A stretch of 64,000 nucleotides of DNA, taken from assembly GCF_000711195.1 (NCBI RefSeq), contig NZ_JOMR01000001.1, forward strand, positions 1,736,001-1,800,000. Direction: 5' to 3'. The DNA comes from Thiomicrospira pelophila DSM 1534 (GTDB lineage: Bacteria; Pseudomonadota; Gammaproteobacteria; Thiomicrospirales; Thiomicrospiraceae). Made by a program: the position numbers and the translations under genes. The notes under the pieces are model-generated. The model saw nothing but the letters and a program-made list of their open reading frames with translations. It was not told the DNA's origin and searched no databases. Position 1 is the first letter of the stretch; each line of letters starts with the position of its first letter. Below are positions 48,705 through 51,233 of this stretch, piece by piece.

Positions 48705-49791
48705 GTCGCTTTTTATCGGACTTATGTCCGGTACTAGTGCAGACGGTATTGATGCTGCACTAGTACGCTTAAACAATGGTCATAAAATTGAACTTATCGA
48801 TTTTTTGACCTACCCGTCTCAACTTAAACCTCAGCTCACTAAACTAAATCTAGATACAAAAATCAGCTTAACCGAACTAGCAGAGTTACAGGTTAAAATT
48901 GCGCAGGAATTTAGTCAGGCCGCTCTGACACTTATCAAACAAAATGGCTACGAAACCGCTAACATCAATGCGATTGGCAGCCATGGCCAAACTATTTTTC
49001 ATGCTCCAGAGCTGGGCATGAGTATGCAAATTGGCCACCCCGCCATCATAGCCAAGCAAACAAACATTGCTACGGTCGCTGATTTTCGAGTCGATGACAT
49101 GGCTCTTGGTGGCCAGGGAGCACCGCTTGCCCCTTGTTTCCACCAGGCCTTATTTGACAAGCACCACAAGCCAATCTGCGTGGTAAATATTGGTGGCATC
49201 GCTAATATTAGCTATATAAATACGGATAACGACGTTATCGGATTTGATACCGGACCTGGTAACGCGTTGATGGATGAAGTATGCCAACAAGCCTTTAAGC
49301 TAGAATATGATCAAAACGGCGATTTAGCGGCGCAGGGCCAAGTAAATCATACATTATTAAACGCATTGCTGTCCGACCCTTACTTTGAACAACCGACACC
49401 CAAAAGCACCGGACGTGATAAATTTAACCAGGCCTGGTTGCTAAAACACCTTCCACGAAATATTGAGCCTAACGACCTACTCGCTACTCTTAACCAGCTC
49501 ACAGTTGAAAGCATTGGCGCAGAACTGATGAAACTTGATCTACCAAGCCAAACCGCTTGCTTAATTTGTGGCGGTGGCGCTTATAATCGAACTTTATTAA
49601 ACCGTTTACAGTCAAAACTACCCAATTTAAACATCCAATCAACCGAACAACTTGGTCTCAATCCCAATGCAATTGAGGCGATGATGTGTGCCTGGCTCGC
49701 AAAACAACGTTTAGATCATATTGAAATTGATTTAACCAAGATTACAGGCGCATCAAGGCCAGCTGTATTAGGCGGTCTCTGGCACCCTTAA
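48697..49791 (+). CDS. anmK: anhydro-N-acetylmuramic acid kinase
   Basis: 364 residues. GLMSGTSADGIDAALVRL start, SHGQTIFH, VADFRVDDMALGGQGAPLAP, and FDTGPGNALMD identify AnmK. It phosphorylates anhydroMurNAc from recycled cell wall. It overlaps the M23 peptidase gene by 8 bp, linking wall cutting and recycling. The start is TTG at 48697; ATG at 48724 is possible but would remove the first strand. Confidence 0.95.
   Translation: MNKSLFIGLMSGTSADGIDAALVRLNNGHKIELIDFLTYPSQLKPQLTKLNLDTKISLTELAELQVKIAQEFSQAALTLIKQNGYETANINAIGSHGQTIFHAPELGMSMQIGHPAIIAKQTNIATVADFRVDDMALGGQGAPLAPCFHQALFDKHHKPICVVNIGGIANISYINTDNDVIGFDTGPGNALMDEVCQQAFKLEYDQNGDLAAQGQVNHTLLNALLSDPYFEQPTPKSTGRDKFNQAWLLKHLPRNIEPNDLLATLNQLTVESIGAELMKLDLPSQTACLICGGGAYNRTLLNRLQSKLPNLNIQSTEQLGLNPNAIEAMMCAWLAKQRLDHIEIDLTKITGASRPAVLGGLWHP
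49141..49150. repeat. half palindrome CACCAGGCCT (in gene)
   Basis: Left half only, read as H-Q-A-L in anmK. Confidence 0.55.
49426..49439. repeat. ACCAGGCCTGGT palindrome (in gene)
   Basis: Perfect core AACCAGGCCTGGTT in anmK, read as N-Q-A-W. Confidence 0.9.
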
Positions 49792-49863
49792 TCTTTGTGG
49801 AGATCAAAGTCACCCAAACCCTTCCATACCAGTTCAAGCCGATTTAACTTAATAATTATAGAT

Positions 49864-49888
49864 AAAAAAGCAGGCCCAAAAGAGCCTG
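49864..49888 (-). terminator. Rho-independent terminator of the TorF porin transcript
   Basis: On the minus strand CAGGC, 8-nt loop, GCCTG followed by C and TTTTTT. It closes a series of three further hairpins. Confidence 0.75.
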
Positions 49889-49894
49889 AAGAAA

Positions 49895-49977
49895 CCCTGT
49901 CGAAACAGGGATACGAGGATACCAATTAGGAATTCCGACTGAGGAAGTCGGACGCGCTATTTAGGATAAATAGCGCG
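49895..49977 (-). other. three tandem hairpins in the porin 3' untranslated region
   Basis: Stems, in transcript order: 11 bp at 49953-49977 (loop 3 nt), 6 bp at 49935-49951 (loop 5 nt), 6 bp at 49895-49910 (tetraloop). They lie within 90 bases after the stop and end at the terminator. Looks like an mRNA-stabilising or sRNA-producing 3' region. Confidence 0.75.
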
Positions 49978-49985
49978 CTAAACAA

Positions 49986-50684
49986 TTACATAATGTCAAA
50001 CGATTTAGTGAAACCAACTACCATCATTAGATCGCCATCGCCATCTTTACCCAGACCTGTATCTTCACCCATTGTATTAATCAATGACAAACCCAAGTCT
50101 GCCCCTGGAGCTAGTTCAGCTGAGTAACCAACTTCCAACCAGCTATAATCTGTATCTTCACCAAGAAAATCTTGCGTGATGCCATATAAACCGTACACGC
50201 TACCGTATTCATATGAAGCCGTTAACACACTATAGTCATGTGCTTCTGCACCAACCGCTGGTCCAGTATGATTACCAACATCAATTCCAAGTGAAAAACC
50301 ACCATAAGAGGCTGATAAATTGACTTCATCATATTCCTTATCCCATACCTCTTCAGTATAACGATACAAAGTAACGCCAGCACTAAGGCCAACACCAGAT
50401 ACTTCGCCAGACCAGCCGCCGTATACATCATATTCAATTTCGTCATCTTGAACTTCAGATGCCCACAAACCTGCATATATGCCAGATTCGTTTTCATAAT
50501 CCACACCCGCTTGGGCGGCGGCTGCACCAGCAGATTGTGGCAAACCACGGAAAATATACTGGGAAACTAAACCGGCATTACCCGTCACACCAGCTTGTAC
50601 GCTAGCTGGGGCTAAAACGGCTAACGAAGATCCGGCCATTGCCATTGAAAGTACCAATGTTTTTAATTTAGCTGTCTGTTTCAT
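49986..50684 (-). CDS. TorF-family putative porin
   Basis: 232 residues with a signal peptide ending SVQAG. GLVSQYIFRGLPQSAGAAAAQAG is the family start, followed by alternating strands of a small outer-membrane barrel with paired acidic turns, ending FTKSFDIM. It is also known as TIGR02001 family; the transported solute is not known. Monocistronic, with a four-hairpin 3' end. Confidence 0.88.
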   Translation of the reverse strand: MKQTAKLKTLVLSMAMAGSSLAVLAPASVQAGVTGNAGLVSQYIFRGLPQSAGAAAAQAGVDYENESGIYAGLWASEVQDDEIEYDVYGGWSGEVSGVGLSAGVTLYRYTEEVWDKEYDEVNLSASYGGFSLGIDVGNHTGPAVGAEAHDYSVLTASYEYGSVYGLYGITQDFLGEDTDYSWLEVGYSAELAPGADLGLSLINTMGEDTGLGKDGDGDLMMVVGFTKSFDIM

Positions 50685-50840
50685 TTGTGTTTTCCTTTTT
50701 TGTTGTGAAAGACTTTAAATCTCAACAAACATAAAGCTTATTAAATGCCAACACATTAAAACTTACATAAAAAACAATAAGTTAATTAAAAAATAACGAG
50801 CATATTATTTTTATCACCGCTCCTTATGCACCAATCTGGT

Positions 50841-51233
50841 TCACTCATGCACCTTGATCTTGTCAAAACAACTTGACTCAGCCTCAAAAAACACTCGTAA
50901 GCGTGCATCCAACTCATGAAACTGCTTTATATAGGCTTTACCCAATGCTGTAACAAAAGTACCGCCACCCGATTTTCCGCCCTTTTCACTCAGAACCAAA
51001 GGATCATGCGTCAACTTATTCATATCCTCTACTAGCTTCCAGGCTTTCTTGTAAGACATACCCATCTCTTTTGCGGCGCGATTAATTGAACCAAAACGAT
51101 CAATATTTTCCAACAAAGTAATTCGCCCAATCCCTAAATAGCCCTCACCTTCTTCGGTTACTATCCAAAACCGTGCCCGAATGCGTTTTGAATAAGCGTC
51201 ACCAGGTAACTTTTGCACATTACTTTTCTGCAT
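50841..51233 (-). CDS. ModE-like winged-helix regulator without MOP domain
   Basis: 130 residues. IGRITLLENIDRFGSINRAAKEMGMSYKKAWKLVEDMNK is the ModE N-terminal winged helix, and GGKSGGGTFVTALGKAYIKQF completes it. The molybdate-binding MOP repeats of E. coli ModE are missing, so ligand control must differ. DNA-binding is inferred. No molybdate transporter is nearby; the porin and GGDEF genes flank it. Confidence 0.85.
   Translation of the reverse strand: MQKSNVQKLPGDAYSKRIRARFWIVTEEGEGYLGIGRITLLENIDRFGSINRAAKEMGMSYKKAWKLVEDMNKLTHDPLVLSEKGGKSGGGTFVTALGKAYIKQFHELDARLRVFFEAESSCFDKIKVHE

Follow-up and report, generated by a model that had tools for sequence, protein, structure and literature searches.

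The 3' end of the mRNA of a TorF-family porin in Thiomicrospira, whose members are chemolithoautotrophic sulfur oxidisers, probably gives rise to a 3'UTR-derived small RNA, in which an exposed UAUCCUC motif would pair with mRNAs, presumably at their Shine-Dalgarno sequences. This reading was reached by sequence comparison and structure prediction for a porin locus within a 64-kb stretch of DNA from Thiomicrospira pelophila DSM 1534 (64,000 nucleotides, hereafter the window). The first-pass annotation of the window had suggested that a series of hairpins behind the porin gene either protects the mRNA or belongs to a small RNA derived from the 3'UTR. The small-RNA option is favoured here because the porin 3'UTR contains a conserved unpaired block that would be dispensable for decay protection and for termination alike, and the protection reading is less favoured.

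The porin gene and the hairpins behind it

The proposed parent mRNA is encoded by a gene for a TorF-family putative porin of 232 aa (49986..50684, minus strand), which matches TIGR02001 ('TorF family putative porin') with 91.5 bits at a cut-off of 47.15 and is also matched by PF09694. In a porin search over 57 kin genomes, 40 genomes matched, including eight of the nine Thiomicrospira genomes; the genomes compared in this genus include those of sp. UBA5634, ALE5, Kmv17, and T. microaerophila ASL8-2. The ninth Thiomicrospira genome (G006) encodes neither the porin nor the tail RNA element. A gene for Hfq is present in all nine genomes, in eight of them above the cut-off and in the remaining one at a contig end.

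Upstream of the porin gene, the motif TGGCAT-N7-GC (50736..50750, minus strand) is kept in the form TGGCA[CT]-N7-GC in all eight porin loci of the genus. It is labelled sigma-54-like by comparison with the sigma-54 consensus, and the tail RNA would thus be under sigma-54 control. Similar TGGCA elements were seen by eye upstream of the porin in other loci of the family. A consensus scan of the minus strand detected no sigma-70-like site inside the porin gene, so that processing of the mRNA fits better than a separate promoter. On the other side, the gene anmK converges on the porin gene and ends at 49,791; it adjoins the porin in seven of the eight genus loci. A short gene for a ModE-N-terminal-like regulator (50841-51233, minus strand) adjoins the porin in all eight genus loci and in 11 of 22 other kin loci. 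It matches TIGR00637 with 88.8 bits, which is below the cut-off of 98.5, and may tie the TorF porin to molybdate.

All four hairpins claimed 3' of the porin gene were found in the order given; they lie on the minus strand between 49,978 and 49,864. Their stems had been described as 11, 6, and 6 bp followed by a terminator, and stems of 12, 6, 6, and 7 bp were found, the last one with a U-run. The region is as annotated, except that the RNA has its 3' terminus, and not its start, at position 49,864, because the gene lies on the minus strand. In the MFE fold, stem-loop H1 (49952..49978, minus strand) has 12 pairs, or 11 without the outer G-U, and a 3-nt loop, and H2 (49935..49951, minus strand) has 6 pairs and a 5-nt loop. 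Stem-loop H3 (49895..49910, minus strand), which is indicated by folding and by compensatory changes, has 6 pairs and a UUCG loop. The Rho-independent terminator (49864..49888, minus strand), found by scan and fold, consists of 7 pairs (stem 49,888-49,871) followed by U6 and is proposed to be the common end of the mRNA and the small RNA. Scanning of positions 49,860-49,990 yielded two terminator-like sites, both on the minus strand.

The MFE of the minus-strand tail is -44.5 kcal/mol, whereas shuffles average -25.3 (sd 3.2), corresponding to z = -6.03 with none of 200 shuffles as low, despite a GC content of only 44%. When both strands of the window were folded in 129-nt segments, 23 of 2,972 segments reached -44.5 kcal/mol or less, the porin tail included. 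Based on these statistics, the observation of the hairpins is correct and goes beyond chance. In all eight genus porins, the element is part of the 3'UTR, and its 3' end is the intrinsic terminator of the mRNA. Stem-loops at the places of H1 and H2 are present with differing sequences in seven of the eight genus UTRs; both are absent from the remaining one (L003).

Covariation and conservation, which the first-pass annotation had proposed as a check, were both found for H3 and the terminator, in a count that covered these two helices and rests on eight related sequences only. On the model-fitted alignment, all 104 cells are paired in all eight species (100% for either helix), and compensatory changes occur in three of the six pairs of H3 and in one pair of the terminator stem. 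These 4 pairs compare with a shuffle mean of 1.7 (6 of 500 shuffles as high), and the 10 cells that are changed on both sides compare with a mean of 2.4 (reached by none of 500). For further pair types, 165 of 500 shuffles attained the observed count. The same 4 pairs and 10 cells were recovered with an unfitted MAFFT alignment, in which a shift of one terminator row lowers the share of paired cells to 97.1%. The AGGA loops on the plus strand resemble CsrA sites. Such a reading of the plus strand was rejected: the sequences of H1 and H2 are not kept, the terminator has the opposite orientation, and the minus-strand helices include G-U pairs in 10 of the 104 cells, which would be A-C mismatches on the plus strand.

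Conserved unpaired block and range of the element

The most conserved block of the porin 3'UTR lies in the 24-nt unpaired gap between H2 and H3 and is absent from the first-pass annotation. This mostly unpaired block (49913..49932, minus strand), delimited by the alignment of eight species, ends in GUAUCCUCGU and is proposed as the seed region. With columns of the eight aligned genus tails numbered from the stop codon of the window's porin, 14 of 20 columns are invariant in the unpaired block (positions 57-76). For comparison, this applies to 0 of 53 columns in H1, H2, and flanking bases (positions 4-56), to 6 of 24 in H3 and the linker (positions 77-100), and to 13 of 25 in the terminator (positions 101-125). 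The word GUAUCCUCGU is identical in the eight porin-bearing genomes among the nine Thiomicrospira genomes searched, and GTATCCTCGT is the same in all eight aligned tails. Within the porin tail, GUAUCCUC is mostly unpaired, with a mean unpaired probability of 0.60-0.92 across species, and partly paired in some of them (0.60 in L007 and 0.65 in L002). The core motif GTATCCTCGTA (49912..49922, minus strand) has two exact copies in its own genome, one being the porin tail and the other lying inside a coding region that is folD-like by eye.

A covariance model, R1, was built from block, H3, and terminator of the eight genus sequences. It matches once in each of the eight porin-bearing genus genomes with 80-96 bits, scores that are high by construction because R1 was built from these sequences. 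Under stricter filters, no further R1 match above 31.1 bits was found in 62 genomes of the family, including any second site in the eight genomes. Phage and plasmid collections contained no match to the element. A pattern scan of a contig collection, which included four of the eight porin-bearing genus genomes, returned 22 loci, 18 of which lie outside Thiomicrospira and are taken as chance. At gathering scores, Rfam families matched the 64-kb window only at two tRNAs located elsewhere, with no family for the porin-tail element, and at relaxed E-values the porin region gave weak matches of 15-21 bits, all below gathering. Among 21 porin tails with a terminator from other genera (loci L009-L030), GTTAGTTA precedes the terminator in eight (shuffle mean 0.27, maximum 2) and TCCTC in six (shuffle mean 0.65, maximum 3).

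The free-standing gene and the shared word

Eight of the 14 weak R1 matches in other genera were examined. In all four genomes of a sister genus (g2), these matches represent one element in four copies that is not located beside a porin gene. It comprises promoter elements resembling TTGCA...TATGGTA (by eye), the near-invariant GTGGTATTTTCTTCATGAGTATCCTCTTATG, and a terminator; a consensus scan of one of these loci (L041) found the terminator and no sigma-70 site. A second covariance model, R2, which was built from this sister-genus element, has matches with E <= 0.1 in 62 of 62 family genomes. A 17-letter pattern was preferred over R2 because many R2 matches are apparently simple terminators. 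Allowing up to one mismatch, this pattern has a single site in each of 54 of the 62 family genomes, including all nine Thiomicrospira genomes; it is missing from seven genomes of genus g3 and from a single genome of genus g7. In a class-wide sample of 369 genomes, the exact pattern was found in four, all belonging to this family, and in none of the other 365, with no mismatches allowed. The copy in the genome of strain DSM 1534 (L172) lies outside the window at C1:1,343,225-1,343,241 on the minus strand.

The family-wide form of this free-standing small-RNA-like gene consists of a promoter followed by a stretch starting with TTCATGTTTCTTCATGAGTATCCTCCT; in most copies, a second stem-loop comes next, and the end is formed by a stem with a T-run after it. 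Promoter-like sites are TTGACA-17-TACAAT in the genome of the window (L172) and TTGACA-17-TATACT in L118, each scoring 11 of 12. The consensus scan found a promoter in both of two family-type loci and a terminator in neither. For an alignment, 28 of 35 non-identical stretches were kept, and L045, L048, L119, L152, L154, L163, and L165 were dropped as near-duplicates by eye. Of the 23 consecutive positions of TTTCTTCATGAGTATCCTCCTCT, 20 do not vary among these 28 copies. According to single-sequence folds, TATCCTC is largely unpaired (0.68-0.97) and is located between two stem-loops in most copies. This is contradicted by RNAalifold, which gave a poor consensus for the 28-row alignment (-1.5 kcal/mol) with a 3-pair helix over part of the seed. 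Five of the free-standing loci all stayed below Rfam gathering scores, for example with 30.4 of 50. The gene is apparently undescribed.

The porin tail and the free-standing RNA have the word GUAUCCUC in common, which lies in the conserved part of both and is followed in both by a stem-loop and a terminator. The free-standing gene carries GUAUCCUC in nine of nine Thiomicrospira genomes. The porin tail has the variant AGUAUCCUC in six of eight species and GGUAUCCUC in the genomes of the window and of Kmv17. The longest word common to both RNAs has 8-9 nt, a length reached in 12 to 114 of 4,000 dinucleotide shuffles in six non-independent genomes. Taken alone, the shared word would thus be only modestly significant, and it is suggestive and not a proof because it was found through a genome-wide search. 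It is quite possible that the two RNAs converged on an anti-Shine-Dalgarno word. A third instance was found behind a ferritin-like gene, whose 3'UTR has a stretch starting with GTATCCTCCGTCTTTAG that is followed by a stem-loop and a terminator. It is present in two of the nine genus genomes (G007 and G001), and the ferritin tails of these two were examined. The two copies, L204 (G007:C1:2080466-2080529, minus strand) and L205, resemble the free-standing RNA. The ferritin-like gene itself scores 153.5 bits against NF007638 at a cut-off of 178.

Targets, rival explanations, and meaning

According to the proposed mechanism, transcription from the sigma-54-type promoter would yield the porin mRNA, which an endonuclease such as RNase E would cut 3' of the stop codon, in or near H1 and H2. 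A fragment of about 75-130 nt would persist, shielded by the stem-loops and the terminator and with Hfq on its U-tail. Its UAUCCUC motif would then pair with Shine-Dalgarno regions of the GAGGAUA type in other mRNAs, and translation of these would be blocked when the porin is made. The free-standing RNA, with GUAUCCUC at a similar place, would probably serve overlapping targets.

Candidate targets were searched with the patterns CGAGGATA-N1-12-ATG and GAGGATAC-N0-12-ATG in the nine genus genomes and with AGAGGATAC-N0-12-ATG in the four sister-genus genomes. The matches include identical sites that recur and, judged by eye, resemble copies of rRNA, the complement of the free-standing RNA itself, and sites restricted to a single genome. 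For GAGGATAC-N0-12-ATG, 61 matches were obtained in the nine genomes compared to 24 for the reversed pattern, an excess for which Shine-Dalgarno sequences alone may account. From these 61 matches, 45 sites (30 loci and 15 stretches) were examined, and none was a convincing target. Genes that recur at GAGGATAC sites encode a lipoprotein-like protein in two genomes and a tesA-like gene product in four, the latter being the most recurrent. Among nine tesA loci, the search word is present in seven, five of which have GAGGATAC. The site at the tesA-like gene overlaps an apparent conserved coding sequence of the divergent neighbour, and no gene is claimed as a target.

The rival explanations differ in how much of this pattern they account for. 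The 3' end could be purely mRNA-stabilising, with stacked stem-loops that stop 3'-to-5' exonucleases and secure termination and with no trans-acting RNA. The preservation of H1 and H2 in structure and not in sequence in seven of eight species is what a decay block requires, and the fold energy (z = -6.0) points in the same direction. However, the conserved unpaired block and the word common to a separate RNA gene are left unexplained, and species L003 has the block without H1 and H2, which makes this explanation rather unlikely. A comparably low probability is assigned to a reading in which the unpaired block, on several RNAs, is bound by a protein or by a sponge RNA; such docking would control the stability of the torF mRNA in cis, and the block would not be an mRNA seed. 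The same word is found in three RNAs beside stem-loops and a terminator and the target search produced no convincing target, as docking would allow, but the complement of the motif is a Shine-Dalgarno-like sequence. Such complementarity is a common property of seeds. This argument against docking is a weak one, and conservation is predicted by docking and seed alike.

A small RNA acting mainly on its own mRNA in OppZ/CarZ-type feedback has a known 3'UTR precedent (PMC7398697). Pairing of the porin tail with the porin's own start region does not stand out in seven of the eight species, in which between 13.5% and 69% of shuffles are equally good; only in L004 are as few as 4% of shuffles as good. 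Autoregulation of this type was therefore set aside as a candidate and is considered improbable. The seed of the free-standing RNA, used in one Thiomicrospira version for all species, beats 97% of shuffles against the porin start in L003 only, and 14-36% of shuffles are as good in the other seven. Tight palindromes in an intergenic stretch between convergent genes could also suggest a REP/BIME-like extragenic repeat or the remnant of a mobile element that folds by chance. Instead of the many copies expected of a repeat, there is one R1 match per genome in the eight genus genomes, the core word occurs elsewhere only inside one coding region, and phage and plasmid collections are without a match, so that this origin can hardly be considered. 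The reading as a 3'UTR-derived small RNA with an exposed seed is preferred.

Conserved sequence 3' of stop codons that extends beyond the terminator has been suggested in a review to mark possible seeds of 3'UTR-derived RNAs (PMC9438474). The porin tail resembles the RNase E-processed RNAs CpxQ, SdhX, OppZ, and CarZ in that it lies directly 3' of the stop codon, shares the terminator of the mRNA, has a conserved stretch before this terminator, and occurs in a host with an hfq gene. In contrast to these RNAs, it belongs to another host gene and self-targeting is unsupported; the likeness is one of anatomy. MalH is described as an RNA from the 3' end of the malEFG mRNA of E. coli whose over-expression lowers the general porins (PMC8081044). 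Like MalH as described there, the porin-tail RNA would come from the end of an uptake-gene transcript; unlike MalH, it belongs to another gene and lineage, and its host gene is the porin itself. The cyanobacterial RNAs Yfr1 and Yfr10 are described as otherwise dissimilar RNAs with one UCCU-containing motif in common, which in Yfr1 is single-stranded between two stem-loops (PMC6778093). The predicted layout of most copies of the free-standing gene is similar to that of Yfr1, and the pair formed by porin tail and free-standing RNA resembles the Yfr1/Yfr10 pair; in contrast to the cyanobacterial RNAs, the elements belong to another phylum, and the likeness concerns the way of working, with no kinship claimed. 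A literature search in titles and abstracts found no small-RNA study in Thiomicrospira, Hydrogenovibrio, or Piscirickettsiaceae and no report of either the porin-tail or the free-standing RNA.

The porin-tail RNA would belong to a known kind, the 3'UTR-derived small RNAs, and the seed-sharing network is possibly new. More tentatively, a family-wide core small RNA with the seed GUAUCCUC may have satellites, in that the torF 3'UTR and, in two species, the 3'UTR of a ferritin-like gene could have acquired the seed word. Making the porin or the iron store would then add RNA acting on the targets of the core RNA. For two RNA elements below Rfam thresholds, the sequence, structure, and range have now been described, and the free-standing RNA offers a good starting point for studying post-transcriptional regulation in this group. 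If both RNAs use the common word as a seed, the two elements provide a testable case of mRNA tails acquiring the seed of another small RNA, and if the satellite reading is true, Thiomicrospira would have a seed-sharing network that is built partly from mRNA tails.
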